IMG/VR virus record: IMGVR_UViG_3300013101_000033
Location: 1 to 37,649 of that record
DNA: 37,649 nucleotides
Strand: one strand, 5' to 3'
Source of the DNA: a virus
In this document: positions 15,110-36,085 of the stretch, one piece after another
Position numbering within the stretch: position 1 is the first letter of the stretch
Layout of the letters: the number at the start of each line of letters is the position of its first letter
Notes under the pieces: model-generated
Databases searched by the model: none
Seen by the model: only the letters and a program-made list of their open reading frames with translations
Told to the model about the DNA's origin: nothing
Translations under genes and position numbers: made by a program

Positions 15110-15147
15110 ATTTAACAGTAATTTTTTACACTATGGAAGGAAATAAC

Positions 15148-15819: not shown

Positions 15820-15905
15820 TGATCTCCAAAACAGAATAGCGAAAGCGTGCTGAGTATAAAGCTCTCATGCCTCGTATTCATGAAGTGAAAAGAGGAAGAG
15901 GATCA

Positions 15906-15989: not shown

Positions 15990-17187
15990 TTTGATCTATG
16001 CAACAGAACGACCTGAAAAAGTCACATTATATTTTAAACAAGGCTCATCCGATAAGGTGTATCAAGCCCAGCTGATAGCTGAACAAGATATGCAAAGAGC
16101 TGAAGTACGTTGGACTGTACGTGCTGCTTATGGACGCCGTGGTAGTAGTATGCGCCATATTAGTAAACTACAAGGTGACACTATTTATTATACTGAAGCT
16201 AAAGCAGTTTACGATAAATTGGTTCAATCCAAGCTACGTAAAGGATATTCCCCAGGACCTGGTGGCACGCCTTTCAATGCAACTAAACTACACGCAGATT
16301 ATGCTGCAGTGTTTGATTCAGTTAATCGCCCTGAACCTACTGGATGGCTTCCTCAGCTCCTGAACCAAGTTACTCTTGAGGAAGCTCATGGCATCTATCG
16401 AGGGAATGAAGGCAACATCCTATTGCAAACTAAATGGGATGGCGAACGGCGTGCCGTTATGTGCAACGTTGTTGGTCGTACCACCATGCATGTCAAAATT
16501 ATAGGCGCTAATCGTAAAGGATTAGAAGTACCTCTGACTGATGCTGTTCGAGGTACAATTGATAAGTTATGCATGGCTACTACCCAAATACTTATTCTCG
16601 ATACAGAAGATATGGGTGATTATCTAGTCATATTCGATGTTTTAAAGTACGGAAGAGAAGATTTGACGCGTTTACCGTACAGGGAACGGGTGATATATCT
16701 GCGAGCTATATCTGAAGCGCTCTCAGAGATGAATACACCCTTCTTAATGGTGGATATGCCATTTAAGCCTTTAAGCTTCGTTGAATTCTGTGGATATATT
16801 GAAGATGCCAAAGAACGTAACGAAGAAGGTGTTGTTATTCGAGTGGGCTCTACTGAGTATCTTCCAGGTAAACCTAATACAGGTGGTGGACTCTATAAGC
16901 TTAAGTTTAAAGAGAGTGCTACATGTAGAGTTGAGTTTATTCATCCTACAAAGAGTTCTGTAGGACTTGAGTTATTTGATGAAGTAAAACAACAATGGGT
17001 CAGTGTAGGTAACACCACTATTTATCCTAATAACACCTTCCCAGATGCTGATGACATTATTGAAGTAGAGTACCTCTATGCTTATCCAGGTGGCTCTCTT
17101 TATCAACCAGTCTTTAAAGGACCTCGTCCTGATATAGATGAAGACGCAGCTGTTCTAAGCCAATTAAAGTACAAAAAGGACTCCTAA
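15976..17187 (+). CDS. ATP-dependent DNA ligase with N-terminal WGR domain
   Basis: This 403-residue protein joins two modules. Residues about 14-92 form a WGR-like domain (VTLYFKQGSSDKVYQAQL, WTVRAAYGRRG, KAVYDKLVQSKLRKGY), a fold known from PARP enzymes, where it binds broken DNA ends, and from some bacterial proteins. Residues about 130-385 form a nucleotidyltransferase: motif I TKWDGERR with the lysine expected to be adenylated, K153; IFDVL near 219-223; motif IV EEGVVIR (283-289); motif V LYKLKFK (306-312); then an OB-fold-like end. The usual motif III acidic residue is probably among DTED (209-212). It seals nicks in phage DNA. The ribosome-binding site is weak and start coupling to a small upstream peptide is possible. 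The stop overlaps the next tiny gene (TAATG). Confidence 0.88.
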   Translation: MGLADLIYATERPEKVTLYFKQGSSDKVYQAQLIAEQDMQRAEVRWTVRAAYGRRGSSMRHISKLQGDTIYYTEAKAVYDKLVQSKLRKGYSPGPGGTPFNATKLHADYAAVFDSVNRPEPTGWLPQLLNQVTLEEAHGIYRGNEGNILLQTKWDGERRAVMCNVVGRTTMHVKIIGANRKGLEVPLTDAVRGTIDKLCMATTQILILDTEDMGDYLVIFDVLKYGREDLTRLPYRERVIYLRAISEALSEMNTPFLMVDMPFKPLSFVEFCGYIEDAKERNEEGVVIRVGSTEYLPGKPNTGGGLYKLKFKESATCRVEFIHPTKSSVGLELFDEVKQQWVSVGNTTIYPNNTFPDADDIIEVEYLYAYPGGSLYQPVFKGPRPDIDEDAAVLSQLKYKKDS

Positions 17188-17267
17188 TGACTGACTGGTT
17201 CTTTCGAATAATCCTTGTAACAGGCATAGTAATAGGTGTATATGTATACAGGAAGTATATGAAATGA
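17187..17267 (+). CDS. 26-residue membrane peptide, translationally coupled on both sides
   Basis: This ORF begins at TAATG on the ligase stop and ends at ATGA on the next start. It encodes MTDWFFRIILVTGIVIGVY followed by a short basic tail. One transmembrane helix with positive C-terminal residues suggests an inner-membrane peptide. The double coupling is the main evidence that it is real. Function unknown. Confidence 0.6.
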   Translation: MTDWFFRIILVTGIVIGVYVYRKYMK

Positions 17268-17557
17268 CTGAAAAAGTATGTAAACCAGGTGAATGCCTGC
17301 CTAAAGAATACGACGGTATGTACCGATGTATGGTTTGTTTTAAACCCTTTGTTCAAGCAGAAGAGGAGGACGTTATGAACCAATTACAAGTAGCGCCAGC
17401 CATTGCTAGAATTGCAGAGCTGGAAACAGAAAATACGACCCTTAAGCAAAAACTTGAGGCCCTGAAAGCTATCGTCAGTGCAGTACGCAATAAGGAACCT
17501 GTTGAAGGGTATCCTGCTGCTATGTTGGACATGGAGGATAGACATGGATATTCGTAA
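17264..17557 (+). CDS. small cysteine-containing coiled-coil protein
   Basis: This 97-residue protein has an N-terminal knuckle-like segment (CKPGECLPKEYDG, then YRCMVCFKPF) with four cysteines that could bind zinc, and a helical segment IAELETENTTLKQKLEALKA with leucine-zipper heptads. The combination suggests a small dimeric nucleic-acid or protein adaptor. It overlaps the membrane peptide upstream (ATGA) and the exported protein downstream by 14 bases. No family is recognised. Confidence 0.6.
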   Translation: MTEKVCKPGECLPKEYDGMYRCMVCFKPFVQAEEEDVMNQLQVAPAIARIAELETENTTLKQKLEALKAIVSAVRNKEPVEGYPAAMLDMEDRHGYS

Positions 17558-17807
17558 AGGTTTACTGATATTACTGTTGATAATTAGTGTTAGTGCCGAG
17601 GGCAATGAGACTATAACCAAAGGTCAGACGGACTCAGGCTACATACGCTTAAAATCAACTACCATGCCTAACGGCACAATTAAAACTACTGGCCACGTCC
17701 CCCAAGGGGGCGTGCGCCTCAAGACCAAAACTACTGCTACCGGTACAACCACTCGAGGTTATATTGGCGGTAAGTACATTCGCACTAAAACTACCAAAAA
17801 AGATTAA
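17544..17807 (+). CDS. small exported, Lys/Thr-rich protein
   Basis: ATG 17544 is chosen because GGAGG sits six bases before it; the product is 87 residues. It starts with a classic signal peptide, MDIRKGLLILLLIISVSAEG, with a likely cleavage after SVSA. The mature part is basic and shows a loose repeat: YIRLKSTTMPNGTIKTTGH, then VRLKTKTTATGTTTRGY, then YIRTKTTKKD. Export to the periplasm or surface is therefore predicted. It lacks a lipobox. A role in superinfection exclusion or envelope binding is speculative. Confidence 0.62.
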   Translation: MDIRKGLLILLLIISVSAEGNETITKGQTDSGYIRLKSTTMPNGTIKTTGHVPQGGVRLKTKTTATGTTTRGYIGGKYIRTKTTKKD

Positions 17808-17932
17808 CTATTATGGAGTGCTCGGGTAAAGCAAAAATCGCACAGGCTGATTAGACCCCGGACGAACTCAGGCATGCAGGCATTGCAGGCGGATTCCTGT
17901 GACGGACACTTCTCCATTCTTCTATTAACACT

Positions 17933-17959
17933 AAAGGAGTACACAACATGACGAGTTAG
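17933..17959 (+). other. three-codon minigene with a strong ribosome-binding site
   Basis: AAAGGAG (17934-17940) is followed at normal spacing by ATG-ACG-AGT-TAG (17948-17959). The surrounding 17808-17981 holds no other convincing gene. It could be a leader that affects the next gene, a lambda-bar-like minigene, or the remnant of a lost start. Real translation is unproven. Confidence 0.3.
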
Positions 17960-17981
17960 AACCTGAAGAGGAGAACTTCTC

Positions 17982-18158
17982 ATGATTGTAAAAAAATCTG
18001 GTAGCAAGAACCGCAAGTATGGGCGTAATGCCGTACAAGGTACTCAATACCGCAACCTTAACATCCGATTTAAAAATAAACTTCTGAAAGTACAACGTCA
18101 TTTAAAACGTTATCCTGAAGATGCTACTGCTTTGAATTGGATTAAACGCAACACTTAA
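17982..18158 (+). CDS. small very basic phage protein (58 residues)
   Basis: ATG 17982 follows GAAGAGGAG at about nine bases. The product is rich in Lys/Arg/Asn: KKSGSKNRKYGRN near the start and KVQRHLKRYPEDATALNW near the end. The R-H-L-K-R-Y/H-P-x-D phrase is one I recall from short basic phage proteins of unknown role. Binding to nucleic acid or ribosomes would suit its charge but is unproven. Confidence 0.6.
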   Translation: MIVKKSGSKNRKYGRNAVQGTQYRNLNIRFKNKLLKVQRHLKRYPEDATALNWIKRNT

Positions 18159-18219
18159 CCTTGAGGCAGTTCTCGGGATCTGGTTTAATCAAAATCCCTT
18201 AATTACTTAGGAGAGTAAT

Positions 18220-18441
18220 ATGTCCGAATTCAAAACTACCGAAGGACAGCATCTTGTCGGTATTTCTTTTAATCCTGGCGGCCATGAACAAGTGAATCAT
18301 ATCAAAACAGTAGTTGCTGATTTAATTGATTATGTACGTGCCAATGGTAAAGACCCACGTTGTACCAGCATTTGTATTCATCAACTTGAAGATGCTGCAA
18401 TGTGGGGTGTTAAATCAGTTACTAAACCGGAGCGTATATAA
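18220..18441 (+). CDS. acb2: Acb2-like anti-CBASS protein (cyclic nucleotide sponge)
   Basis: This 73-residue protein has the Acb2/Tad1-type helical hairpin pattern: LVGISFNPGGHEQVNHIKTV, ADLIDYV, then RCTSICIHQLEDAAMWGVKS. The blocks S-F-N-P-x-G, I-K ... A-x-L-I-D and the ending E-x-A-x-M-W-x-V-K are the features I use for the family. Known members form compact hexamers that bind cyclic di- and trinucleotides, starving CBASS effectors. It has a good ribosome-binding site (AGGAGAG), and its stop overlaps the start of a Tad2-like gene (TAATG). The pair thus looks like a dedicated anti-signalling unit. A homolog with altered ligand preference is possible. Confidence 0.85.
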   Translation: MSEFKTTEGQHLVGISFNPGGHEQVNHIKTVVADLIDYVRANGKDPRCTSICIHQLEDAAMWGVKSVTKPERI

Positions 18442-18656
18442 TGGATTTTTCACAAGCATTAGATGATTTAAAAGATGGTGTTCTTATGCAGCGTGCTGGT
18501 TGGAATGGTAAGAATATGCATATAGAAATACAACGTCCAGATGAGCATAGCAAAATGACACTACCATATATTTATATGCGTACAGCTCAGAATGATCTCA
18601 TTCCATGGATAGCCTCCCAATCAGACATTATGGCTGAAGATTGGCAAGCTGCATAA
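18441..18656 (+). CDS. tad2: Tad2-like anti-Thoeris protein (DUF2829)
   Basis: This 71-residue protein matches the DUF2829/Tad2 pattern from end to end: FSQALDDLKDGVLMQRAGWN, SKMTLPYIYMRTAQNDL, PWIASQSDIMAEDWQAA. Known Tad2 proteins form tetramers that sequester the cyclic ADP-ribose isomers made by Thoeris ThsB; some also bind CBASS nucleotides. It has the usual family length with no missing blocks. It is coupled to the Acb2-like gene by a one-base overlap, with GGAG just upstream of its start. A terminator follows at once, so the two genes end the operon. Confidence 0.93.
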   Translation: MDFSQALDDLKDGVLMQRAGWNGKNMHIEIQRPDEHSKMTLPYIYMRTAQNDLIPWIASQSDIMAEDWQAA

Positions 18657-18721: not shown

Positions 18722-21700
18722 TTACTTATCACCACCAAACGGATTCAGTATTATCTGAAGCAAAGATGGTGTCAGCATATCTACTCTATCCATTGTAGCC
18801 AGGGGGAACATGTGCAGTCTGGACGCAAAGTTAAAGTTATCCAAGAAAGCATAATCCATGATGTTTGAATTCACTGGATAACTTGTACTCATCTTTTGTA
18901 GTGCTAATACACTAAATGCTGATGCAGGATTCTGCCTGTACAACTGATATATGATCTGTTGAATCCTAAAGAAGTATTTAGTAAACATCAGGAAACCCAT
19001 ATCATTACCATACTGTAGCCACACATTCTGGGGCACATCGTAGTAAATGAAGCTATTGATTGCGTCTTGTATAGCCAGTTCCTGATCTTTACCTCGTACA
19101 TCCACGTCATATTTAAACTGAATGTGTCGTGCAATAAAGTCAGCATACTGCGTAGCAGCTAAAGCAACCTTAAATGTTTGAGCACCTGGAACGATCATTA
19201 CTTCCTTAGCAGCTGATACCATTGCAGAGGGTATCCATTCACCAGTCTCATCAAACTTCTGCATCACCTTGTTACGCCAGTTCCAGGTATCCGGTTCGAT
19301 TTCATCAGCGATACCTGTGAACACACCTTCCCCAGCCAATACATTGATTGGATTGTTAGCCATGCTCGCTATTAACGCTTTCTCTTGCGTAATCTGTGCA
19401 GCTTTAGGCGCTCCATGAATGGTGGTTGAAACTACCATCTCCTGACGTAAATCATGTAAGGCTTTCTCATCTTTCTGATATCGATAGATGCCCTTCAAGC
19501 CTGCTTTAAATTCCTTATAAATAAACTGTGGTGGAATGCCACGAGCCAATAGAATCGCCAAGTTAGAAGCCATATTTCCTATCACCACATCAGGCATAGT
19601 TAATACGATCTTGATCTTTAACAGCTTGATCACATCCATCCAAATGCGTTCTGCAGATCTTACTGTAAATGCACTCTTACCTAACCACTCCCCATTCGCA
19701 ATACTAAACTTCCTAAATCCCAGTACCAAATTAATAATGTCATCCCTGATATAGAAGTGCTCTCCACCAAACAGCTGGGTAAGCTCCTCTTTCATGGCTT
19801 CTGGAATCAAGTCCCACATCTCTTTTACTTTAGGATCTTTTGAGTATTTACTGATCTCAACAAACCTAAGATTTTCATTATTACGGCCAGCCTTATATTC
19901 TTGATATAAAAGCTTGGCTGATTCTGAGTTAATTACCTGACTATTAATTTTATCTTCAATGCTACCGAACATCCGACCCAACAAGTAATCAAAGTCCTGG
20001 TTAGCTTCCAGTACTTCTTGCTTATGATTCCGTGACATTTCATATGTGTAATTTACTATCTTGCCATTAATATCCAATACAGGTGTTACCCGGTCCTGAG
20101 TACTATTAACATCAGGATTGAACTGTTGTTGTAACGTGTCACGTTCCATACGGTTACGTAAAACTTGGATATTGTATTTCGCCAGCTTTGCTGCAGTACC
20201 TTGATGCATGCCATTTAAGCGGTTTGAATCATACAAGCTCTGACCACGATGATCAGTATCTGTTGGAGATACCACCATCTTCATGTACATGGCATTACCA
20301 TCAAGGCCTTTCCACATAATCATGCGCGGTGAATTACGTAACAATGGATCAGCAGGATCTCGAGCCATTAAGCCAATACGCTGGTAATTCTTCCGTTCCA
20401 TCTCGGCAATACCAGCAGTATCATTTTCAGCAGTAAATTTCATGTCAATATCTGGGTTGAACTGCTCGTATACATACCCATCAATCATCTGAGTAGGATT
20501 GTCATCAAACAACCTCTTTTTAGACATTGTTTTGAAATTACGATGCATGTTCATAAAAGCAGCAAATCCATTCAATGCTACCTTACGGCTCATTTCATGG
20601 TTTACAACTTTCTGAGCATTTGCAATATCATCTGGTGCAGTCTCATGAAGGATCTTCAGAGCCATTACAGACTTCAGCTCATTTAAGATAGCTTCAGTAC
20701 CTGCCACATCTGCCAGCGTTCTACGGTTCTGTACATTAGTGAAGTAATACTGGTTAGCAATAGCATTAACATTCTTCTGTACATTAGCTTTCTTGGTAGT
20801 GCCATGGATCATTAATTGAGCCAGGCCTGTTACCTGGTTATGTAATGAATTGTAGAGCTTGTTATCACCTTTTGTGATATTTATCAGTTGCTGTCTCTTG
20901 ATCGCAATCTCTCTATCTACCGCAGCTTCACTATTGATAAGTATTTGCAGTCGTTCAAAATTTGCACCAGTGCCAAGCAGCGCTGACAAGTCTGTGCGCA
21001 TGCCTACATTAGTTAAAGCTGCTTTATCTGCGCTACGAAGTTTATGCCGTGTACTCTTATCAAAGTGACCACGTAGATAACCCATCATATCTTCAATAGC
21101 ACTACGACGAGCTCTATCCACTGTATGATTGGACTTACGCAGTTGCTTCTTCCATACCCGCTTACTTGCTAAGTCTGGTGTGAGCTCTTCCAAAATCTCT
21201 GCTACATCATTATTACGGGTCTTCAGTAATGACCTATAAAATTGATCAGCAGATTCATTAAATTCTGCATTCTCAGATTCCAGCATTGCTACCAGTGAGG
21301 TATACCCTAAATCCACTAAAGTACTCTCACCAGGCGTAGGGATATTATTACTGGCCCAGTCATTTAATGGGTCTGCAATTTTGCGACCTATTTGATCACT
21401 GATCCAGTTATTAACAGAATCCATCCTTGGAAGCGTGTTCATCTCCTTATGCTTAACTCTGGACATATTCTGCATGTTGATAGATATAATATGACCCGCT
21501 AACGCTTCTAAATCAGCATGCACTTTGCCAACCTTAGATTTAGTAGTACTGGTTTGCAGAAGGCGGAAGATCCTTCCCAATATATTCTGCAATGTCTTAA
21601 GGGTGGCGCCAGCCCAGATAGGCTGAACGGTATTGGGTGAATCCATCCGAGCAAGTGCAGCAATCAGTGGCTTATTCACTAAACCATTGATGAAGAACTC

Positions 21701-24700
21701 TGTCAGTTGGTTACCATCCTGATTCTCAAAGATATAGTTCCAGCGCCTCTTGGCTTGCTCTTCTGCATATGCTTGATTACCAGTTACTTGGCCGGCAGGT
21801 GGCATGAATACTCTCCAACCACCATGTTTTTCAGTTAACTCCTTATGCACATGATTAAAGATTTTTTCAACTTCACGCTGTGTATTCCAATCACCGACAT
21901 CACCGCTTGCAGTATTATCGCCCAGAGCCCATCCAATAATTGGGTGAAGGTACTCATGAACCATAGTCTCTTTTAGAGACATGTCGACATTGGAAGTTAA
22001 TGGATTACCTGCTGCTTCCAGATAAACAGTGTCACCTACTACTTTACCGACATTACGTGTGCCATTAGGATTAGTACTCATGAGCACAGTAAGTGGGCTA
22101 ATAGTTCTCATCCCTGGAACAACTATACGATCCAGTACACCATCAAGATATGTGTTGTGTTCTGGATCTTGTGGTACCAGCTCCAGCTTATTGATGTCTT
22201 CAATTACCTGAGATATCTGATCTCCAGGAAGTCTGGTTACGTAACGTTCCATGAACGCAACAGTATCAATATCCTCATCAGAGGAATTGTTGCTTACCAC
22301 GGGGGTGGCAAACTCCGCATTAGTCTTCGCAGCACTTGCCTGCGCTTGGCTATTTGTCGGAGGTACAATCTTGGCAGCTTCTTTCAATGTATTCAGTATT
22401 TCTAAGGTAGGCCTGAACTGCTCCAACATTAATAGATCCAGTTTCTGATCAGGCTCAAACTCAGTAATTACATATGAGAGTAGTTCAGACATTGCACTGA
22501 TTTGTTGCTGTGTATCTAATGACTCCAGCTGCGCCTGCAGCGTAGCTGCAAAGGCGTAGATGCCCGGACGGGTAGCACGATGCTTCCGCATCAAGCGTTC
22601 TGTAATTGTGATCCCCTGAGCCACTATCTGATCAAACTCACTCAGCTCTGCTGCAGTAGGATCAGAATTCTCAGCAACCCTATCCAGATACTCTACAGTT
22701 ACTGCATGCAGACCCTCATGGAGGATGGTGTGTATCAGATTAGGTGCACCTGCCCAGATACGTACCTTGGCTTGCCGTCCACGGAACTTAGCTTCATAAA
22801 CACCATTGGCTTTTTCTTCCAAGCCTCCTGGCGTCATTACAATAATTGGATCATTTTCCAGGAAGACGCTTACACCTTCTGCATCAGCAGTGCCTCGAAG
22901 ATCCGTATTACCTTTAGTTTGTTCTTGAACAATCCGGATAACCGTAGTGAGAGTATCGTTACCAGCAGTCTTACTGAATGATTGGTTCAATACATCCAAC
23001 AAATACCCTAAGCCAATACGTTTATTAGGATTTTGTCTGATAATCCTTTGCAGCAATTCTTCTACTGCAGGTATACCTTCTGGTATAGAAGTTGACAGTG
23101 CAGTAATTACCGCTTTCTTAGCATTATCAACAAGTAAGACTTCTTCCCGCTGTGCAGCAACCAAGTCTTTCATAGACGGGTTGACAACTGTGTAGATAGA
23201 TGGAGAAGCTTCAAGATGCTTTAATTCTGCAGCTGCATGTACTTCACTGTGGCCAGAACCCATGTAATTATCTACAGCTCGTACCTGTTCCCAGAATTCC
23301 TGCCTACCAGTAAGTACATCTTCCCTAATGGTATTCAGGTTCTCCAGTACTCCATCAAAGGTTGCACGGTCAGTCTGTCCACGTTCACGTTTTACAAGCT
23401 TACTGAGCGTTTTAGATGCCAGCATTTCTTTCAGGATATCTGCTTTTGTTTCAGCGGATAACTGACTGGACACTGGATGTAGGGCTCTTAACATTGAAAC
23501 CATATTGTCAAAGAACGCCTCAACCATGTTGTATTCATAGTTGTACTTGATGAAGCCTTTATTAGCCTGTTGGCTTGCCTGTCTGGAGAGTATTCCACTG
23601 ATACCCTGACCATCATATGTATTGGTCATTGGGTAATCTCGCAGCAGTTCCTGCTGGATTGTGCCTTCTTGAGATTGAATCGTACGTACTGCCGGCGCTA
23701 CACCAGGACTCTCTTTGAAAGTACGATCTTCAATACCAAAACCTAAAGTCTTACGAGATGTAGTAGTTCCTTCTGGCGCTTCAGTAAATAGGTCTATGTT
23801 ATTTTCAAACCCAATACGGCCTATTACTGCTTCGCCATTGATGACAAAGCCCTGGGAAGTACGCTTGACTGCTTCGATACGATCATTGGTGCTCTGCGAT
23901 AGGGCGCCCTTAACTGCGGGGAAGAGTCCTTCAGCTACCATCTGGTCAGTAATGTCCTGAATGTGTATCTGATCTGGGTAGAATTTATACTGTTTATGAA
24001 AATCAGCAATTCTCTGTTCCAGTATTTCCGTAAATACACGGTTACTGATATAAGCCATTGCATGTAAGGAGTTACGAACTCTTTCTTTATATCCCAGCTC
24101 TGTATCCAGCGCCAATGCTAAAGGCTCACCATAAATATCAGAAAAGATCTGTTGGATTGCATACCGGCTCTCCGGAGAGAAATTTACCCGAGTACCCAAA
24201 TTATATACATCAGGTGTACGGCCACCACGCTCTTCTCGAGCATAGTATGCTGCACGTTCTGCTTCAATTTCTTCTATCTGTGTATCAATCTGTTCTGCAG
24301 TATGTAGTGTCCATTTATCACCTTTACGTAATCCAGTATCTTTAAGGATCGTAACCATATTGTTGCGGGCAATAGTTATGTTCAATAATGCTGTACGCAG
24401 CTCATCAGGATCATTAATCGTACCCAACTTCACCAGCATCGCATTGTATGCATCTACTGCAACAGATCTCTTGGCATTCTCACGGCCTGAGTTATAGTTA
24501 CCCAACATGAATGGGAACTTGGCAAAATTACGACCAGCACCGGTGACCTTACCATCAGGACCAATAAAAGCTTCAATAACGCCTTTACCATCACCTAAGG
24601 TATTTTGACCAAATGACCGCATTGTTTCATCAGCTTGGGTCAGTAAGCGTCTAAGGTCTAAACGTAACCGGTAAATATCATTCTTAATGCTTGCAGCATC

Positions 24701-27700
24701 TTCTGCATGCTTTGGTACTTTGGTCAATAAGTCATTTAATTGACTACCTTTCTCTGCAATAAGCTCTTCAGTAGTACCAAGTTGTTCAACACCATCTTCA
24801 GTTGGCTTGACCTGATCGCCCTTTTCCATTGCATCAAGCACTTTGTGTAAGTGCACTGTAATAGTCTTATATGCATCATTTTCTGTCTCCAGGAATCCTG
24901 CAGCAGTAAAGCTATCACCAGTAATTGTGATGCCATACTTCCGTGCATCTCGAACGCTACGATCAAGATTCTCAGTAGTAACCTGTTGTACCAGTGTAGT
25001 AGCAGCTCCTGCAGCTACAGCATCTGACTGTACTGGTTGGTATAGATTTAACGGCGTAGTATCACCACTCTCAGCTGCTGTTTGTAATGCAGCCAAGTTA
25101 GCCAGAGTCATGTACGTCTCACTGTTCTCCATGCCATCTAATTCCATGGCTTTAAAATCAGCAATCTGAGCAGGATTAAAACGAGGCTTACCATCCACTT
25201 CCTCATCAGGATTTTTAATGTGATCAATTAATTTCTGGAAGTCAGCAATTCGAGCATCTACTTGTTTTAGTACATCTGCATCACTCATGAAGTCGACTTT
25301 CACATCCAATTTCTGTAGTACAGATCTATAAAAAGCAGTCTGCATTTCATTATCTATTGCAGTAGCTGTAGACATAGTTGCAGGATACTCAAGGATGTTC
25401 TCCGCTTTCGGGAACAGGGCCCTGTGCACCTTGGAAGCCTGAGGATTAGCAATGGTATTAACCATCATGGTTCTGAAGTTAGTTATGGCTCTATTGGGCA
25501 CATAAAACTTGGTTACTCCAGCCTGTTCCATAGTGGCTATCCACTCCAATGCGAGATTAAAATCTCGAATGAAGTTACCGTTACGCCCCCGGATATTTTT
25601 ATGCATGCTTAATGGCACACTTTCCAGAGTTGGAACTATGCCGTGAAGGACCTCTAAATAGTCTATATCCGTTCCAAACAGCCTCATCTGCTGTTCGAGG
25701 ACAGTATTTACACCAAGTGGCCTATCCTGATCTGCCTGCATGCCTTCCTGCAGGTCCTTAGGAGCATCCATGGCTGTACGAGCTATAGATTTACGTACCT
25801 TTTCAAATTTAGTGAAGGAGGGCATCTCTGCCTTACCCATCAAACCAAACATATTCTCCATTTCGCCAGAACGTGAGAGAGTTACACTTGCCTGAGTAAG
25901 CTTCTGAATATAAAAGCTGAACTCATCAGCAGCAACACCGTTGGCTGCCGGCTGTGTTTCCAGTCTCAGGAATGAACGATAACCTTCCATCTCTTTGGAA
26001 GCCTTACCAGTTTCAATCTTAACTAAATCCTTCTGGTACAGGTCCACTACACCCATGGTCTTCAGGGTAGCGATAGCATGTGCACCCATCACGCGGGGCA
26101 TTATCGATCTGATCTGGCCAGTAGATAATCCATTGCCTTTAATATTCATGTGACGCATGACATTGTTACCAATCATGTCATACACAGTCTCAATAGAATC
26201 GCCTACATATCCCAGCTCATTCATTTCATGTTCGTTCGGGATGTAACCTTCAGGCTTACCTAAAATCTTACGTACCTCTTCCTCATCATTAGAAATGGTC
26301 CGCTGTCCAGCACCAGTCATATATTTGAATGTTTCCAGAGCCATCGCTGTAACCAGGTTAGCATTGAGATTGCCGGCGTTATCACGGAAATACCACAATG
26401 GGTCTTCAGAGATGATGTCACCAATAACAGTGCCCTTCTGGTAAAAGATAGACTGTGTAGATGGAGACTTCTTACCCCATTTAGGCAGAGACTCACGCAA
26501 TTTCAAACCAAACTGATCTTCAAAATTCAGGAATAAATCTTTAGCAGCCCATTCTGGAGAACCAGTTTCACTCTGAGCCTCGAGTTTAAGTGCACTGATC
26601 CAGTTGGGGAAGAGTGCCAAGTAACTGTTGTGCTTTGTATTCGATTGTACAAAGCCATCAGATAATCTTGCAGGCAAGGTTTGTTTATTCTCACCTCTAC
26701 CAGCTTCTTGCATAAAGAAATCAGTACTATCATGTAACTGTGAATCATTGCCCTGATAGCGCATGCCACCAGACAAGAATGCATTGTCATAAGCAGTATG
26801 AGTTTCTTGGAAACTCTGAGTCTTGCTGATTACCTTATTAATAATCTCATTACGGTCAGTATTACTGGCCTCAAGAGTTGCAATTTCTCTCGTCAGATTC
26901 TTTAGGAAGCTATCCCGGGCTTTACGGAACTTATCTGTCATTGTCCCGTTCATACCCATCTCAGCTACATGTTGTAATGCATCTCTATAATACTCATCAG
27001 CCTGAGCCAGTGAATCATAATGGGCATACCGTAATTGCTCTTCCACCATGGACTCAACTTGACGTATCAAAGTGTCCAGTTCTTTTGGCGTCTGTATTGG
27101 GTTATCCAGATCACGTAGGCCTTTACGGGCGCCACGTATCTTGTTCTGGATATCGGTATCAATCTCCTCTCCAAGAACATCTACCAAGTAATTGACATAG
27201 TTAGTAAGGCGCTGGTGAGCAGGTGTCTTCAAACGCTCAATAACACCACTGGCACCTACTGGTGCAGATTCAGTATCATCAATATTGTTGGGATCTGTTT
27301 CCAGCTCAACAGTGGACTTAATTTTATCCGTCTGTGGAAAAGTACGGGGCTCACCCATATTATTAATAGGCTGTAGTTTTTGTGCCTGTTCAGCAGGATT
27401 GTCAGTATATTCCTCAACAAGACGTTTAGCCTCTTCCTGCGCAAACTTAATTTCCTCTGAAATGATTTCCTGTAAGTCAGCGTTACTTGTATTCCGGTCA
27501 GCTAAATCAGCTGCGGTATCTGTACCAGTATTACGATGAAATTCATTTAGTCGGCTCTTTACAGCCTCAGGAATAGCTTCATTATCCCGTAAGGATTCCA
27601 AATACCGTGCCCAAGTAGAGATTTCAATTGGATTCTCAGCATTATTATCCAGTGAGGCCTGTAAACGAGAGACAACACTCTGCAGGTTGCGCAAAGTAAC

Positions 27701-30700
27701 ATCCAACTCCGCCTCAGCGTTTGGATCCCTCTTAGCGTCCCGGGCTTCTTTATGGCGCTCAACAAGCGCAGTTACTTCTTGGCTAAAGCCAATAGCTTCC
27801 AGCTCAGATAGCTCAACATTGTCCTCAACATCCAGAAGCTTATTAAATACTTCCATAGGCTTGAGGTTATTCTTACCTTCAATAGCAGCATAAGCAGCTC
27901 TGGCTATTTGTTTGCCACGAGCCCTACCAAGCTTATTGGGCTCTCCCTTACCAATTTCTTGATCTGCAATAACCTCTAAGAGAGAATCTAAGCGATTAAT
28001 TTCAGCATTTAGATATGCTAATCGTTTTTTCTGTCCAGAGGTCAATTGTCCCTTCAGAGATAAGGCTTCAGCCTCAGCAACAGCAACATTATATTTTTGA
28101 ATTATTTCGTCTTTTGTATAGGCGTCGTCCGGCTCGCCCTGCGGGCCGCCGTCCTCGCCTTCAGGTGGGGTGTCGCTACCTTCTACTTCTCCCTGGCTAT
28201 ATAACAGAATATTAGCGTCTTGAATGAACTGAAGCTTTTCAGAAATAGTCGCTTTATTTAACTTTGGCACCTTCAGTTTATGATTTGGGATCTTTTCTTT
28301 TAACTTGGTAGCAGCATCTCTGGCTGCAGTATTAACAGCCTTGACCTTACCTTTGGTCAATTTATCCAGCTTATCTACAATACCTTTTGCAAACTTTTTA
28401 GCCTTATCAGCAAGTTTGGCGGCCTTGGTCTTCTCGTCCTCTGCAACCTCAGCTTTAGCAGCCTTTTTAGCTGCTTTCTGTGCAGCCTTGGTAGCATTAG
28501 CTTGCTCAGTACGGGCATCACCATACGCAGCTACTTTAGCCTGTAACTGAGTACCTACTTCAACCATCTGAGCTTGTTCAATTTCAAGCTGGTTTAGTAA
28601 CTTCTTGATACCTTCCTCATGCCAGTTATATGTGACACCGTTCATTTCAAACGTTTTCTTAGGATTCTTTTTCTTGAGTTGATTCTTAAGGAAATCAATC
28701 TTCTTCTGTTGCCCAGGAATAAAAGTATCAACCAAATGAGTGGTTAAGCCCTCTGCTCTGCGCTGCAGGTTACGTGTTAATGCGTCACTGACTTCATATA
28801 CAAGGCGCTCGAGTCCGGGGACATCTTCTTTGACACCCGGAATAAATGAACGCAGATTACCCATCTTAGAGTTATGGGCTTCCAACATTGTGACACGCAG
28901 CTCCGCTGCCTTGACTGGATTGTCTTCAAGTCCCTGTATTTCAATTTGAGACTGAATAGTCTCATTCAACGCTTCAGTATCATTGAGCAGTTCTAACTGT
29001 TTACTCAGTTCAATGTTGGCTTGAAACACCCGTCCCATAGCCTCGCCGGCAGCAGTTTTTACCTCAGGATCAATTGGAATGCCACGTAACGACGCTTCTT
29101 CCAATAAAGCAAAGTCTCCAGGACCAAACTTACCTTCTTTATGTGATGCTTCTTGTTCTTGAAGACCACGGAGTAATCCTGTTTTGTATTGTTTATTCAG
29201 CTTGCCAAAGGCATCTTCAAAAGCTGCAACATCCTCTGTAGCTGTTTTGATTGCATCAGCATCACCACTGGCTTCAGCTTTAAGCAGCTTTGCTGCCAAT
29301 TGTGGCATTGCTCTATGGAACAAAGCCTCAGCCATATTAAAGGTCCGGAAGATTGCTCCTGTAGTCTTCTCTGGGCCTGCTTCAAGATCTTCCTGAATTG
29401 AGTTATATAACTCTTGGAAAGAACCTGCAGGATTGAAGTCTTTCTTCTTTTCTGCCTCACGCAGCTGTTCATTTACAAGATTTCTATCTCCACCAACAGT
29501 AACTCCACCTTCTCCTGTTGCTGTAGCTGTATCAGCATCATCACCAGTAGTTTTAGGATTTAGAATCTTCTTAAATATGCCTTTAGCACCATCAGTTATT
29601 GCAGAGATGCCTGCACCAGATACAAAGCCTACAACTGCACCTTCTGCTGCTGCACTACCAACGCCTGGACCAATCTCTTCACCAGTGGCTTCCTGGCTTG
29701 TAATCTGACCAATGAGTTCACCACCACCTGATTGGATAGTTTCTTCAACTGTTTCCTTGGCACCGGCACTGAATGGTTTCTTACCAATTTTTGTAGCGCC
29801 TTTACTTGCCAGAGCTACTACAGGTTTCAACCTCTGCGCTACACTTGGTTTAACACCAGCTGCAGCATCTGCACGGCGTTTGATGACCTTCTCACGTCCT
29901 TTAGCAAACTTCTTGGGACCGAGGGTCTTCGTGACCTTTTTCTTAGCTGGATTGGTAATACCTGTGAATAACCTACCCTCAAATGCGCCCGCCCCTGTAC
30001 CAGCAGCTGCAGCACTTGCGAGGATTGTGGTCATTACCAGGGATTCAGCATATGCACTTACACCCAATTCATGAAGAGCATCCTCATGGGACATACCCTC
30101 ATCAAATCGAAGTGCCTGATATTTTTCAGACTGCATAGCATCTTCTTCACTAAGACGCATGATCTCAGCATAGACTTCAGCACTGTTGGTCATACCTTCA
30201 GTTATACCAACGGTTGATATACCAGTTCTGTCTACAACCTTACGTAACCGATCCTGAATAGGTTTAGACTGAAATGCCTTGGCAGTAAGCTCACTAAGCT
30301 CTTCTTTGGTGTACTTCTTGGCTTTGGCTTTGCCAGCACCTTTAGTGATGCTTTCAAGTAATTCTCTTTTGATCTTGTTACTTGCAATACGGGCTGCCTG
30401 TCCACCTACAGCACCAACACCAAACATATATGGCAGAGACTCAACTGCAGAATCCAGGGCCCGTCCAGGATTGCGCCAAAAGTCCTGCATAGCGTCAACA
30501 GCTTCATCAATACCTGCTTTGGTACCAGCTACTATTTCACTGTCGCCGTCTGCAACATATTGAGCTTTCTTCATTGAAGAAATAGCTCTACGTTGTTCAC
30601 TACGTTTACCCGCTAACCGATCACCCCGGGTCTTCTCGGGGGATTGGTAATCCTTACGGAAGCCTTGGAGCCCTTCACGGTTACTTTCAAAGAATTCTGC

Positions 30701-31423
30701 AGTTTCTTTGCCTTGACCTAAACCAACCGCTACGGTCTGTGCCAAGCTATTAACCATATCTCCTGCGCCTGCCGTAAGGCCTATAGCGGAGTCTTTTAGT
30801 ACATCTGTTTTAGTACGCTCACCTCTACCGAAATTGTGTTCGATAGTGTCTCCAGATTGGAAGTCTTCGAGGGTACGTAAAAAGTTAAATTGACCTTTGT
30901 AACCTGCATTTTCATCACGGTTACCTGATTGATCCAAGAACTGAGCTGTATTAACATTTTCTTCAATATCCGCAATCACACGGTTGTTGTTATCAACACC
31001 ACGTCGACGATACCTGATATTGCCATTTTCATCTGCAGCGCCTGCTAATCTTTCAGCAAATTGAGCTTTTTGTAATTGACCACGCTCCAATAACATTTCA
31101 CGCGTGACGTCACCAACATTTACCCCAAAGGCATCAGCATAAGACTGTTTATGAATGGCTTCCTTAACAGGATTTTGGTCGTAACCAAATGGGCTGGATT
31201 CATAGGCATCAAAATCATTACCTACACCTCCACCAAGACGGAGAGTGTCTCCAGTGAACTTATCTCTAACAGTATCAGCATCCAGGATATCAACATTGCC
31301 AATATTAATGGCATATGCAGGATTTAGCTCATCCCGTTTCTGCTGAGATGCTCGTGCCAGTGCTGCCTTTTTTTCATCACTTTTAGTTAACTGCCCACGA
31401 ACTATCGAAGAAAATCTGCTCAT
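18722..31423 (-). CDS. giant virion protein with a single-subunit RNA polymerase core (N4-like vRNAP candidate) and zincin motifs
   Basis: 4,233 residues without interruption. Ala/Gly-rich hydrophobic stretches lie near 325-350, 455-485 and 590-615. A Lys/Ala-rich coiled-coil segment (about 950-1075) is followed by an acidic Gly/Pro linker (1082-1100). Polymerase motifs: KNIRGR ending R1947 (T/DxxGR-like, with N where T or D is usual); ELDG with D2096 (motif A); RNFAKFPFMLGNYNSG with R2298, K2302, Y2310 (motif B, R-x3-K-x7-Y); NTYDGQG with D2604 (motif C candidate). In N4 vRNAP the equivalents are R424, D559, R666/K670/Y678 and D951, so spacing agrees except about 95 extra residues between A and B. 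Two HExxH motifs follow: HEGLH (2902-2906) and HEYLH (3156-3160). A hydrophobic part lies near 3920-3965. It ends the capsid-proximal operon. By analogy it is injected and transcribes early genes; the polymerase call is inferred from motifs only. Confidence 0.7.
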   Translation of the reverse strand: MSRFSSIVRGQLTKSDEKKAALARASQQKRDELNPAYAINIGNVDILDADTVRDKFTGDTLRLGGGVGNDFDAYESSPFGYDQNPVKEAIHKQSYADAFGVNVGDVTREMLLERGQLQKAQFAERLAGAADENGNIRYRRRGVDNNNRVIADIEENVNTAQFLDQSGNRDENAGYKGQFNFLRTLEDFQSGDTIEHNFGRGERTKTDVLKDSAIGLTAGAGDMVNSLAQTVAVGLGQGKETAEFFESNREGLQGFRKDYQSPEKTRGDRLAGKRSEQRRAISSMKKAQYVADGDSEIVAGTKAGIDEAVDAMQDFWRNPGRALDSAVESLPYMFGVGAVGGQAARIASNKIKRELLESITKGAGKAKAKKYTKEELSELTAKAFQSKPIQDRLRKVVDRTGISTVGITEGMTNSAEVYAEIMRLSEEDAMQSEKYQALRFDEGMSHEDALHELGVSAYAESLVMTTILASAAAAGTGAGAFEGRLFTGITNPAKKKVTKTLGPKKFAKGREKVIKRRADAAAGVKPSVAQRLKPVVALASKGATKIGKKPFSAGAKETVEETIQSGGGELIGQITSQEATGEEIGPGVGSAAAEGAVVGFVSGAGISAITDGAKGIFKKILNPKTTGDDADTATATGEGGVTVGGDRNLVNEQLREAEKKKDFNPAGSFQELYNSIQEDLEAGPEKTTGAIFRTFNMAEALFHRAMPQLAAKLLKAEASGDADAIKTATEDVAAFEDAFGKLNKQYKTGLLRGLQEQEASHKEGKFGPGDFALLEEASLRGIPIDPEVKTAAGEAMGRVFQANIELSKQLELLNDTEALNETIQSQIEIQGLEDNPVKAAELRVTMLEAHNSKMGNLRSFIPGVKEDVPGLERLVYEVSDALTRNLQRRAEGLTTHLVDTFIPGQQKKIDFLKNQLKKKNPKKTFEMNGVTYNWHEEGIKKLLNQLEIEQAQMVEVGTQLQAKVAAYGDARTEQANATKAAQKAAKKAAKAEVAEDEKTKAAKLADKAKKFAKGIVDKLDKLTKGKVKAVNTAARDAATKLKEKIPNHKLKVPKLNKATISEKLQFIQDANILLYSQGEVEGSDTPPEGEDGGPQGEPDDAYTKDEIIQKYNVAVAEAEALSLKGQLTSGQKKRLAYLNAEINRLDSLLEVIADQEIGKGEPNKLGRARGKQIARAAYAAIEGKNNLKPMEVFNKLLDVEDNVELSELEAIGFSQEVTALVERHKEARDAKRDPNAEAELDVTLRNLQSVVSRLQASLDNNAENPIEISTWARYLESLRDNEAIPEAVKSRLNEFHRNTGTDTAADLADRNTSNADLQEIISEEIKFAQEEAKRLVEEYTDNPAEQAQKLQPINNMGEPRTFPQTDKIKSTVELETDPNNIDDTESAPVGASGVIERLKTPAHQRLTNYVNYLVDVLGEEIDTDIQNKIRGARKGLRDLDNPIQTPKELDTLIRQVESMVEEQLRYAHYDSLAQADEYYRDALQHVAEMGMNGTMTDKFRKARDSFLKNLTREIATLEASNTDRNEIINKVISKTQSFQETHTAYDNAFLSGGMRYQGNDSQLHDSTDFFMQEAGRGENKQTLPARLSDGFVQSNTKHNSYLALFPNWISALKLEAQSETGSPEWAAKDLFLNFEDQFGLKLRESLPKWGKKSPSTQSIFYQKGTVIGDIISEDPLWYFRDNAGNLNANLVTAMALETFKYMTGAGQRTISNDEEEVRKILGKPEGYIPNEHEMNELGYVGDSIETVYDMIGNNVMRHMNIKGNGLSTGQIRSIMPRVMGAHAIATLKTMGVVDLYQKDLVKIETGKASKEMEGYRSFLRLETQPAANGVAADEFSFYIQKLTQASVTLSRSGEMENMFGLMGKAEMPSFTKFEKVRKSIARTAMDAPKDLQEGMQADQDRPLGVNTVLEQQMRLFGTDIDYLEVLHGIVPTLESVPLSMHKNIRGRNGNFIRDFNLALEWIATMEQAGVTKFYVPNRAITNFRTMMVNTIANPQASKVHRALFPKAENILEYPATMSTATAIDNEMQTAFYRSVLQKLDVKVDFMSDADVLKQVDARIADFQKLIDHIKNPDEEVDGKPRFNPAQIADFKAMELDGMENSETYMTLANLAALQTAAESGDTTPLNLYQPVQSDAVAAGAATTLVQQVTTENLDRSVRDARKYGITITGDSFTAAGFLETENDAYKTITVHLHKVLDAMEKGDQVKPTEDGVEQLGTTEELIAEKGSQLNDLLTKVPKHAEDAASIKNDIYRLRLDLRRLLTQADETMRSFGQNTLGDGKGVIEAFIGPDGKVTGAGRNFAKFPFMLGNYNSGRENAKRSVAVDAYNAMLVKLGTINDPDELRTALLNITIARNNMVTILKDTGLRKGDKWTLHTAEQIDTQIEEIEAERAAYYAREERGGRTPDVYNLGTRVNFSPESRYAIQQIFSDIYGEPLALALDTELGYKERVRNSLHAMAYISNRVFTEILEQRIADFHKQYKFYPDQIHIQDITDQMVAEGLFPAVKGALSQSTNDRIEAVKRTSQGFVINGEAVIGRIGFENNIDLFTEAPEGTTTSRKTLGFGIEDRTFKESPGVAPAVRTIQSQEGTIQQELLRDYPMTNTYDGQGISGILSRQASQQANKGFIKYNYEYNMVEAFFDNMVSMLRALHPVSSQLSAETKADILKEMLASKTLSKLVKRERGQTDRATFDGVLENLNTIREDVLTGRQEFWEQVRAVDNYMGSGHSEVHAAAELKHLEASPSIYTVVNPSMKDLVAAQREEVLLVDNAKKAVITALSTSIPEGIPAVEELLQRIIRQNPNKRIGLGYLLDVLNQSFSKTAGNDTLTTVIRIVQEQTKGNTDLRGTADAEGVSVFLENDPIIVMTPGGLEEKANGVYEAKFRGRQAKVRIWAGAPNLIHTILHEGLHAVTVEYLDRVAENSDPTAAELSEFDQIVAQGITITERLMRKHRATRPGIYAFAATLQAQLESLDTQQQISAMSELLSYVITEFEPDQKLDLLMLEQFRPTLEILNTLKEAAKIVPPTNSQAQASAAKTNAEFATPVVSNNSSDEDIDTVAFMERYVTRLPGDQISQVIEDINKLELVPQDPEHNTYLDGVLDRIVVPGMRTISPLTVLMSTNPNGTRNVGKVVGDTVYLEAAGNPLTSNVDMSLKETMVHEYLHPIIGWALGDNTASGDVGDWNTQREVEKIFNHVHKELTEKHGGWRVFMPPAGQVTGNQAYAEEQAKRRWNYIFENQDGNQLTEFFINGLVNKPLIAALARMDSPNTVQPIWAGATLKTLQNILGRIFRLLQTSTTKSKVGKVHADLEALAGHIISINMQNMSRVKHKEMNTLPRMDSVNNWISDQIGRKIADPLNDWASNNIPTPGESTLVDLGYTSLVAMLESENAEFNESADQFYRSLLKTRNNDVAEILEELTPDLASKRVWKKQLRKSNHTVDRARRSAIEDMMGYLRGHFDKSTRHKLRSADKAALTNVGMRTDLSALLGTGANFERLQILINSEAAVDREIAIKRQQLINITKGDNKLYNSLHNQVTGLAQLMIHGTTKKANVQKNVNAIANQYYFTNVQNRRTLADVAGTEAILNELKSVMALKILHETAPDDIANAQKVVNHEMSRKVALNGFAAFMNMHRNFKTMSKKRLFDDNPTQMIDGYVYEQFNPDIDMKFTAENDTAGIAEMERKNYQRIGLMARDPADPLLRNSPRMIMWKGLDGNAMYMKMVVSPTDTDHRGQSLYDSNRLNGMHQGTAAKLAKYNIQVLRNRMERDTLQQQFNPDVNSTQDRVTPVLDINGKIVNYTYEMSRNHKQEVLEANQDFDYLLGRMFGSIEDKINSQVINSESAKLLYQEYKAGRNNENLRFVEISKYSKDPKVKEMWDLIPEAMKEELTQLFGGEHFYIRDDIINLVLGFRKFSIANGEWLGKSAFTVRSAERIWMDVIKLLKIKIVLTMPDVVIGNMASNLAILLARGIPPQFIYKEFKAGLKGIYRYQKDEKALHDLRQEMVVSTTIHGAPKAAQITQEKALIASMANNPINVLAGEGVFTGIADEIEPDTWNWRNKVMQKFDETGEWIPSAMVSAAKEVMIVPGAQTFKVALAATQYADFIARHIQFKYDVDVRGKDQELAIQDAINSFIYYDVPQNVWLQYGNDMGFLMFTKYFFRIQQIIYQLYRQNPASAFSVLALQKMSTSYPVNSNIMDYAFLDNFNFASRLHMFPLATMDRVDMLTPSLLQIILNPFGGDK

Positions 31424-32968
31424 TTACGGTTTAATCCTATTCCCTGGAAAGAAACTATCAGGACCTAAAGGTTCAAGAGGAGGAGACTCTAAACGGGTTA
31501 AAGCACTTCGTAATTGTTGCTCTTTTTTAGCAATTTGCTGTGTTGATAAAGGAACACCATTAGTCTTTTTCTGAGTATCAATCTCTTTACGAAGTTTTTC
31601 AATATACGCAATTGCATTATCAGCTTGACCAACTTTATCAGGATGAATATTTACTTCAACACCTTCTGCCAATAATGCAGTTTTTAAATCAGTTTCTGCT
31701 TGCGTAATTCCTGTTTCTGCTTCACGTCTGATATTTACTTGTGAACGGCTGTCTGCAGCTTCAATCATGTTATTTACAATTTCATTAGGGGACAGCCCGG
31801 TATACAGTGAATTAGTACGTTGAGACACCTGCTCCATAGCTGCAGCTTCCATTGCTTTTCGCAATGTAGTGATCACTGTAGGCAAATTATCAGCAATCTT
31901 GCCATCCATGGTCTTAAGCATCTCTAAGCCATACTGAAAAGATTCTTGATCAGGAAAGTTGGCCTTCAGACTTGCAACAGCATCTCTGTGATTCTGGTTA
32001 CCTTTTTTACCAGCCTGTACGTTATACCCTAACTGTTTAGCAAAAGCTTTAGCATCTTCACCACTAACTTTATTTGTACTTGGTCCAAAGGTGACACCAC
32101 TTGCAGTGATTTGACCACTGGAATAATCATTACCAAGGTAATCATCAACACCTTTTTGATAAGCCTCATCTGCATCAGCATCGATCTTGGCTTGATCACC
32201 TTCTCTTTGAGCTTGTTGATCAATAGTCACCTGATACTGTCTGCCTAACTCACTATTAGCAGTAAACTGTGCCGGCGTAAGTCCAAACCTGCTTGCCATC
32301 TGTAACATCCAGTCAGGTTTATTTTGTATTTTATCTTGCTGATACTTTTCCCATACACCTCGATAAGTATCTGCTTGTTCTTGGTTAAATCCTTCATTGG
32401 TAGCATACTCATCATATTGAGCATCTAGCTCTGCCTGCATTCCACCATTAAAGTAATAGTCATTCATTTCAGCAACAGCGCTTTTCACGCGTTTGCCTTC
32501 TGCATAGTCTTCGGCCTCACGCTCTGCCAAAGTGCCTTGACGTGCTGCTTTAGCTGCAGCTTCTTCCTGTTGAGACTTCTGAAGAGATCGTTGTGCTATA
32601 CCGTTGGGCCCTACTTCTGCAGTTCTTGCAACATTGAAGTCAGCTGAAGCATCACTGGATCTAATATTTGCTTGATCAACTTCAAGACCACTTACACTGG
32701 CATTATGCTCATCTTGCCATTTCATTAAAGATGCTGCGTCAACCAAAGCAGGATCAGTAGTCTGGAGTACGTCTTCAATCGTTTCTCCCTGGGCTACCCG
32801 GGCAAATACTTTATTTGTTGCAATCGTTTTAGCTTTAGCTTCATCTTCTTGAGCAAACTCACCAATCTGATCAGTGGCTGCAACCAGGTTTCTACCAAAT
32901 TGAGGACCTTGACCGGCTCTACCTTGATAAGGAGCGAATGAAAAGCTTGTTTGTTGGTTCTTTGCCAT
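31424..32968 (-). CDS. coiled-coil internal virion protein
   Basis: This 514-residue protein is Gln/Ala/Glu-rich and mostly helical, with long heptad-like stretches (for example QQEEAAAKAARQGTLAERE and ETGITQAETDLKTALLAEG). It has no enzyme motif. It lies directly upstream of the giant polymerase-like gene, its stop being adjacent to that start, and downstream of membrane-segment and Gly-rich virion proteins. This is where podoviruses encode internal core or ejection proteins. I infer a structural partner that packs or threads the giant protein. AAGAGAAC upstream of ATG is an acceptable ribosome-binding site. Confidence 0.62.
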   Translation of the reverse strand: MAKNQQTSFSFAPYQGRAGQGPQFGRNLVAATDQIGEFAQEDEAKAKTIATNKVFARVAQGETIEDVLQTTDPALVDAASLMKWQDEHNASVSGLEVDQANIRSSDASADFNVARTAEVGPNGIAQRSLQKSQQEEAAAKAARQGTLAEREAEDYAEGKRVKSAVAEMNDYYFNGGMQAELDAQYDEYATNEGFNQEQADTYRGVWEKYQQDKIQNKPDWMLQMASRFGLTPAQFTANSELGRQYQVTIDQQAQREGDQAKIDADADEAYQKGVDDYLGNDYSSGQITASGVTFGPSTNKVSGEDAKAFAKQLGYNVQAGKKGNQNHRDAVASLKANFPDQESFQYGLEMLKTMDGKIADNLPTVITTLRKAMEAAAMEQVSQRTNSLYTGLSPNEIVNNMIEAADSRSQVNIRREAETGITQAETDLKTALLAEGVEVNIHPDKVGQADNAIAYIEKLRKEIDTQKKTNGVPLSTQQIAKKEQQLRSALTRLESPPLEPLGPDSFFPGNRIKP

Positions 32969-32977: not shown

Positions 32978-33511
32978 TTATCCCGGTGTACCGACGTCTT
33001 TTCCTGTCTTACCCCAGCCTCCAATTCTACGCATTGGCTGTGTTGGGCCACTGTAATCAATACCATGTGCTGCTGCAAAAGCTGTACCTGCATTCTCTCG
33101 GGAACGCATTGCATTATTCGCTAAGATAGCATTAGCATTAAATCCACGCTGTGCACTGTTCTTACGTAACTTGGCGTCTGATCTATTTTGAAGGATTCCT
33201 TGAATCAAGCCTACAGTACTTAAAGCAGCATTTGCTAATCCAAAGCCTCTCTGCACACCCGCCCAATTCATATTAAAACCACCGCCAGTATTAGCTGGTG
33301 CAGCGTACTGTGACCCAAAATCCATTCCTTGTTCGCCAAGGCCTGGTTGAGTGTATTGAAGTGCTCCTACAGAGTTTCCAGAAGAAGACGAAGCGTTATA
33401 ACCACCTTGGCCTCCACCCCAACTGCCAAATCTACCGGTACCAAAACCAGCATTTGCATTATTATAATTATACTGAGGTTGTGAGGTCGGATTGCTCCAA
33501 TCAATTGCCAT
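32978..33511 (-). CDS. low-complexity virion protein with Ala-rich helix
   Basis: The start at 33511 is chosen because it overlaps the upstream stop (TAATG) and has GGAG upstream; the product is 177 residues. The N-terminal half is low in complexity, rich in Gly/Asn/Gln/Tyr/Ser (QPQYNYNNANAGFGTGRFG, then WGGGQGGYNASSSSGNS). The second half has an Ala/Leu helix GLANAALSTVGLIQGIL and a basic segment. The order is like small internal virion proteins of podoviruses, which partly insert into membranes during DNA ejection, but no family match is certain. Confidence 0.6.
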   Translation of the reverse strand: MAIDWSNPTSQPQYNYNNANAGFGTGRFGSWGGGQGGYNASSSSGNSVGALQYTQPGLGEQGMDFGSQYAAPANTGGGFNMNWAGVQRGFGLANAALSTVGLIQGILQNRSDAKLRKNSAQRGFNANAILANNAMRSRENAGTAFAAAHGIDYSGPTQPMRRIGGWGKTGKDVGTPG

Positions 33512-36078: not shown

Positions 36079-36085
36079 ACCATTA

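Follow-up and report, generated by a model that had tools for sequence, protein, structure and literature searches.

A deeply branching N4-type virion RNA polymerase, and the cysteines at the broken ends of its split relatives

The gene at positions 18722-31423 of the window almost certainly encodes the virion RNA polymerase (vRNAP) of an uncultured podovirus that is N4-type (Schitoviridae-like) and deeply branching. The window, the whole stretch of DNA analysed here, is a 37,649-base IMG/VR virus record that is classed linear and is therefore probably a fragment. The encoded protein is a new deep member of an already known kind, the N4-type vRNAPs. In some of its relatives the gene is broken into separate open reading frames (ORFs), and the cysteines at the facing ends of the pieces suggest that these are probably rejoined by disulphide bonds. 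The gene, its domains and the key residues of its polymerase core are as follows.

18722-31423, minus strand: virion RNA polymerase gene, 4,233 aa, with an ATG start, without internal stop and without cysteine
26624-31423, minus strand: N-terminal domain and linker, residues 1-1600, from the N-terminal phrog_2206 match and 24% identity to the N-terminal ORF of the relative L079
23228-26560, minus strand: single-subunit RNA polymerase core, residues about 1622-2732, from alignments, the predicted model and structure matches
25472-25474, minus strand: R1984, equivalent of N4 R424, from alignments with N4 gp50 and relatives
25022-25024, minus strand: D2134, the motif A aspartate (motif DAVAAG), equivalent of N4 D559, from alignments
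24494-24532, minus strand: motif B, R2298-x3-K2302-x7-Y2310, from alignments, on predicted helix 696-710 of the model
23612-23614, minus strand: D2604, the motif C aspartate, equivalent of N4 D951, from alignments, between model strands 1000-1002 and 1007-1010
18911-21877, minus strand: C-terminal helical domain C2, residues 3183-4171, from a sequence match to PDB 11fw_A (E 4.2e-09)

The first-pass annotation had described a 4,233-residue ORF with an N4-like vRNAP core, and the ORF was recovered as described, on the minus strand, from an ATG and without internal stop, while the reading of the core was upheld by profile search, by invariant catalytic residues in a 48-sequence alignment and by the predicted fold. 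In the profile search, residues 875-4198 matched phrog_2206 (PHROG 'virion RNA polymerase') with an E value of 3.7e-241, and a second match to the same family covered residues 121-634 in the N-terminal region (29522-31063, E 6.9e-18). PDB 11fw_A, which was matched by the C-terminal domain, is a virion DNA-directed RNA polymerase. By tblastn (E 1e-5), the C-terminal 1,000 residues matched 461 of 50,697 phage records, and the polymerase core alone matched only 12, all of them Vibrio phages; a core-only search of IMG/VR found no relative, and the conserved C-terminal alignment was required to reach relatives. Core identity to family members was only 15-19% in the 48-sequence alignment. A Pfam search with the whole vRNAP returned nothing, and one with the N-terminal and zincin regions returned a single match far below the cut-off. 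The first 24 kb of the window shared no DNA with named phages beyond one 384-base stretch, which lies in another gene. As had been noted, the protein is larger than the roughly 3,500-residue N4 protein, yet it is not the largest, given vRNAPs of 4,370 aa (L021) and 4,212 aa (L074), both cut at the 5′ end. From the family and the gene neighbourhood, we infer that the protein would be carried in the virion.

The 4,233 residues contain no cysteine. This absence is a family trait already in print: the excerpted texts of PMC2784036, PMC3715699, PMC4837373 and PMC3915230 describe N4-like vRNAPs without cysteine and link this to passage through the tail and periplasm. Upstream of the vRNAP gene, the window carries in order a protein at the place of gp51, a protein at the place of gp52 and a gp53 homologue.

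31424-32968, minus strand: 514-aa protein at the gp51 place (ejection protein), assigned by position, 0/514 cysteine
32978-33598, minus strand: protein at the gp52 place (ejection protein), 206 aa from a GTG, assigned by position, without cysteine over the counted part, 32978-33514 (0/178)
33511-36186, minus strand: gp53 homologue (profile E 1e-28; phrog_2220)

The gp53 homologue has two cysteines. No sequence match to gp51 or gp52 was detected for the first two proteins, which are recognizable solely by their position and by the missing cysteine. Among named relatives, the proteins at the gp51 place were free of cysteine in 10 of 10 cases, as were those at the gp52 place (10/10); the cysteine content of 18 replication proteins of named relatives averaged 0.96%. 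A lack of cysteine may be a useful marker of ejected proteins.

We searched 166 loci, several of them from the same contigs, for vRNAPs split into more than one ORF. Breaks between the polymerase and the C-terminal domain (RNAP|CTD) were found in Alteromonas phage AD45-P1, L061, L098, L101, L103, L104, L105, L106 and L167, and in L133, where the vRNAP is in three pieces. Breaks between the N-terminal domain and the polymerase (NTD|RNAP) were found in L079, L127, L138, L141 and L165, and probably in L115 and L142, whose partner lies outside the available part of the contig. The vRNAP of L079 is broken in the linker before the polymerase into two ORFs of 1,419 and 2,932 aa, and residues 1-1193 of the window protein align with the first of these. 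The split count omits L147, because its core lies in three overlapping ORFs that resemble frameshifts, and the unsplit count omits L119, because another ORF overlaps its start and the core already starts at residue 90.

Unsplit and split vRNAPs differed in cysteine content. The 86 distinct unsplit ORFs, counted with split loci and L119 excluded and with some ORFs cut by contig ends, held 5 cysteines in 285,245 residues, and 82 of the 86 had none. The split pieces (n=28) held 30 cysteines in 53,227 residues, 29 of which were among the final 4 or the initial 10 residues next to a break; the sole internal one was residue 1274 in L133. Each ORF of L079 has one cysteine, and the two lie at the facing ends. 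The middle piece of the three-piece L133 vRNAP has exactly two, one of them residue 3 and the other the last residue but one. The N-terminal partners that were found afterwards for L127, L138 and L141, those of L138 and L141 by homology to the L127 partner, are encoded by non-adjacent genes and carry a single cysteine each, 4-5 residues from the C-terminus (the L141 partner, which runs across contig ends, was read in part). Both sides could be read at 17 junctions, namely nine in the two-piece RNAP|CTD genomes, two in L133 and the NTD|RNAP junctions of L079, L127, L138, L141, L165 and L167, and a facing cysteine pair was present at 15 of them. The exceptions were the NTD|RNAP breaks of L165 and L167.

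Several of these loci are worth recording in their own right. A vRNAP in two or three ORFs, with its only, or nearly only, cysteines at the ends facing a break, is seen at L079:83-13153, L133:3-13585, L014:1606-13288 and L061:2208-13186. L165 (3666-13435), with no junction cysteine at its NTD|RNAP break, has one cysteine at residue 508, and the NTD|RNAP break of L167 (2933-9362), likewise without a junction cysteine, is possibly a frameshift. L158 (4085-13507) is an unsplit, cysteine-free vRNAP inside a split clade, next to L103; it is either the product of a re-fusion in which both cysteines were lost or a member of a lineage in which no split ever occurred.

In a tree built by a quick method with SH-aLRT support only, and in which L165 was not scored as split, L079 and the window protein were fully supported as sisters. 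At least two changes were needed on this tree for the RNAP|CTD break, whose clade also contains the unsplit L158, and three for the NTD|RNAP break.

Two other accounts of the breaks were considered. The split of L079 could be one sequencing error, since its stop codon shares the frame of the following ATG, which is preceded by AGGA, and the reading frame alone does not exclude this; what speaks for a genuine boundary is that both ends carry a cysteine. Read-through of the stop codon was rejected as a general account, as in L061 and AD45-P1 the two ORFs occupy different frames. Searches for close relatives of L079, L061 and L141 returned only the same contigs, and the occurrence of a junction-like DNA motif in the window was at chance level.

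We propose that N4-type vRNAPs need delivery as one covalent string of domains, and that where the gene has broken, the string is rejoined by a disulphide from the single C-terminal cysteine of one chain to the single N-terminal cysteine of the next. On the sequence evidence given above, this is the probable explanation: the breaks would have arisen more than once and in two different linkers, one genome would combine three pieces with two staples, and the window protein would be the unbroken counterpart of a stapled sister. Delivery as one covalent string would explain both the giant size and the lack of cysteine. In the open-licence PMC literature searched, as far as its excerpts extend, no report of split, disulphide-linked vRNAPs was found.

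The proposed course of events largely follows N4. As in N4, a few vRNAP copies would ride in the capsid, and each would be threaded in unfolded form through the tail, along with two further ejection proteins. By analogy with N4, the N-terminal domain would anchor at the membrane, the core would transcribe early phage genes before any are expressed, and the C-terminal part would hold the core back. The missing cysteine would fit a chain that crosses an oxidising compartment unfolded, and the relatives suggest that the domains must arrive as one tethered string. Once the gene is broken, a lone cysteine at each new end of otherwise cysteine-free chains would most simply restore this string through an interchain disulphide, which may form after release and be reduced again in the cytoplasm of the next host.

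The main alternative is that the lone cysteines at the broken ends are not disulphide partners and serve in metal binding, modification or another linkage. It would suit a protein assembled in the reducing cytoplasm, in which oxidation would need to follow release, and it would accommodate the two NTD|RNAP breaks without cysteines in L165 and L167. Against it, the cysteines come in facing pairs, each end contributing one, the L133 middle piece has exactly two, one at each end, the unsplit L158 inside a split clade has none, and the non-adjacent N-terminal partners of L138 and L141 again have their sole cysteine 4-5 residues from the end. We regard this alternative as rather unlikely, and infer disulphide-stapled chains in the split relatives. 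The stapling proposal bears on the old puzzle of why an RNA polymerase should be made as one chain, 3,500 or more residues long, that contains no cysteine. If one disulphide does form at exactly the broken ends, selection would act on an unbroken tether during ejection and not on a single gene. The idea is open to test in the cultured phage AD45-P1.

To number the polymerase core of the window protein against N4, a residue of N4 gp50 was taken as the mini-vRNAP position plus 997, and positions 424, 559, 670, 678 and 951 were R, D, K, Y and D. These are the catalytic residues R424, D559, K670, Y678 and D951 given in the excerpt of PMC2784036, and the mini-vRNAP comprises residues 998-2103 according to the excerpt of PMC12633501. 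When the window protein was aligned by MAFFT with 11 phage vRNAPs, R1984, D2134, K2302, Y2310 and D2604 fell in the catalytic columns, and an HMM alignment with IMG/VR relatives gave the same residues. The columns of the arginine, the motif A aspartate, the motif B lysine and the motif C aspartate were invariant in 48 of 48 aligned cores, as was that of G2139, five columns after D2134; in the tyrosine column (Y2310), F also occurs among the aligned relatives.

These alignments revise part of the motif placement in the first-pass annotation. Motif B was present in full, as claimed, and motif C was correctly placed at D2604, 302 residues after K2302. The motif A aspartate, which had been placed at D2096 (206 residues before K2302), is D2134, 168 before K2302, and the arginine, which had been placed at R1947 (149 before D2096), is R1984, so that the two had been set 38 and 37 residues too early, respectively, relative to the alignments with N4 gp50 and other vRNAPs. 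The spacings of 149, 206 and 302 thus become 150, 168 and 302 (N4: 135, 111 and 281), of which only the last stands. The supposed insertion of about 95 residues between motifs A and B shrinks to 57, inside the family range, as the A-to-B spacing is 178 in V1245O, 175 in L079 and 186 in L091.

The core was modelled with AlphaFold2 over residues 1600-2760 together with 47 IMG/VR relatives (pTM 0.75, mean pLDDT 76.5). In a Foldseek search of the PDB, the ten best matches of this model were N4 mini-vRNAP or vRNAP (best E 5.0e-25), and T7 RNA polymerase came next after the N4 structures (E 2.0e-11). Comparison of the model with N4 mini-vRNAP and T7 RNA polymerase, which the first-pass annotation had proposed as a check, indicated a polymerase fold, with VIA-align Z scores of 27.0 for N4 mini-vRNAP 3c46_B (rmsd 5.6 over 902 residues) and 18.8 for T7 RNA polymerase. 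In the T7 family, a strand precedes motif A, a helix carries motif B and a strand-turn-strand holds motif C; the same arrangement was found in the model, in which D2134 stands after a predicted strand (model residues 531-534) and before a helix (539-547).

One unusual feature of the core is its motif A, DAVAAG, which keeps the aspartate and the last glycine of the family consensus DG[VI]TNG (DGxTNG), a consensus and not a catalytic requirement. T7 RNA polymerase has DGSCSG. Since it lacks the G, T and N found after the aspartate in nearly all relatives, DAVAAG could be read as decay, in a protein that has kept the fold, has lost polymerase activity and acts only as an ejection or scaffold protein. 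We consider this very improbable, because R1984, D2134, K2302, Y2310, D2604 and G2139 are all retained and because four relatives also depart from DGxTNG with their catalytic residues intact (DAVTSG in L015 and L061, DATNSG in L091 and DAKGAG in L079), so that the deviation looks more like a variant of a lineage than like decay. That the earlier placement was right after all, with D2096 (ELDGMENS) as motif A and about 95 extra residues between A and B, is hardly credible: a G does follow D2096, as in most family members, but both alignments pair D2134 with N4 D559 or its counterparts in relatives, the D2134 column is invariant in 48/48 with the invariant G2139 five columns on, and D2134 sits between the predicted strand 531-534 and helix 539-547. 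The window protein is a deep addition to the N4-type virion polymerases and illustrates how far motif A can drift with the catalytic residues retained.

In N4-type vRNAPs the polymerase is followed by a zincin-like domain (excerpts of PMC5512222 and PMC12633501). The excerpt of PMC5512222 gives one or more such domains for N4-like RNAPs, and that of PMC12633501 notes the HExxH of N4 domain C1. In the window protein this domain is present after the polymerase, with two tandem HExxH motifs at 2902 and 3156.

22706-22720, minus strand: first HExxH, HEGLH, residues 2902-2906, aligned with N4 H2228 in domain C1
21944-21958, minus strand: second HExxH, HEYLH, residues 3156-3160, aligned with N4 F2456 (N4: FQMVT)
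21698-21700, minus strand: E3242, candidate third zinc ligand of the second site, from alignment

Among 90 sequences searched, 81 rows, duplicates included, had a second-site match; 63 of these kept the first HExxH only, 12 the second only, 4 both and 2 neither. Both were intact in the window protein, L079, Vibrio phi 1 and Vibrio 1.245.O. The third-ligand position of the second site was acidic in all 16 rows with the second HExxH and in none of the 65 rows without it; the excerpts of the literature consulted contain no statement of such a coupled loss of the second HExxH and its acidic ligand. A model of the region was modest (pTM 0.47); its best match was N4 vRNAP (9pnt; Z 11.4, rmsd 16.4 over 357 residues), and its Z scores against zincin-fold chains, about 7 for the first half and about 6 for the second, are weak values. 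In our reading, a zincin-like domain has been duplicated here, and its two active sites have been lost reciprocally across relatives. Possible targets for cleavage by the metallopeptidase sites after delivery are a host or phage protein and the polymerase itself.

The first-pass annotation had expected hairpin-type early promoters. A scan for stems with a GNA loop recovered three hairpins in N4, each lying a short way upstream of gp1, gp2 or gp15, which we take to be the N4 early promoters. In the window, the same scan gave six hairpins, all within genes and none at a gene start; the early region lies outside the fragment. The place of the heterodimeric second RNA polymerase in N4 (gp15/gp16) suggests that its counterpart would likewise lie outside the 37.6-kb fragment.

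The remainder of the window holds several other features. Between the SSB/resolvase genes and the vRNAP gene lie about 17 kb (768-18656), compared with a few kb at most in the Schitoviridae relatives fetched. Part of this stretch is a minus-strand block, in which a Gp77-type tail adaptor is encoded at 13736-14311 and an ATP-dependent DNA ligase domain at 15976-17187. At 4855-8450, a Band 7/SPFH protein, a tRNA-Ser(tga) (6652-6725) and an AAA ATPase follow in sequence, and 7842-8225, in the AAA ATPase gene, has 75.4% DNA identity to Escherichia phage Pollock. A 67-aa protein at 2002-2205 has six cysteines in CxxCxxC and CxCxxC arrangements and is possibly a small metal-binding protein.

Among known systems, N4 gp50 (PDB 2po4, 3c2p, 3c46, 9pnr and 9pnt) shares with the window protein the polymerase fold, the catalytic residues, the lack of cysteine and the order of N-terminal domain, polymerase, HExxH domain and helical C-terminal domain. 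It differs in size (3,500 against 4,233 aa), with about 15% core identity, in its motif A (DGVTNG against DAVAAG) and in having FQMVT where the window protein keeps its second HExxH. The best named match of the core (E 7e-10) is the vRNAP of Vibrio phage phi 1 (Schitoviridae, Pacinivirus), which is 25.5% identical over 97% of the C-terminal region and also has both HExxH sites intact, but is 3,240 aa long and has a standard motif A, DGITNG. The nearest relative is the IMG/VR contig 3300040801_002588 (L079/L096), with 33% identity over the C-terminal region; it shares the DAxxxG motif A and both HExxH sites, whereas its N-terminal domain (1,419 aa) and its polymerase with the C-terminal part (2,932 aa) are separate ORFs. 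Among the cultured Alteromonas phages vB_AmaP_AD45-P1 to P4, AD45-P1 likewise has an N4-type vRNAP by core and C-terminal profiles. Unlike that of the window, it is encoded in two pieces of 2,481 and 1,409 aa, which part between the polymerase and the C-terminal domain and have their cysteines at positions −3 and 4, and the split region is annotated only as a potential frameshift.
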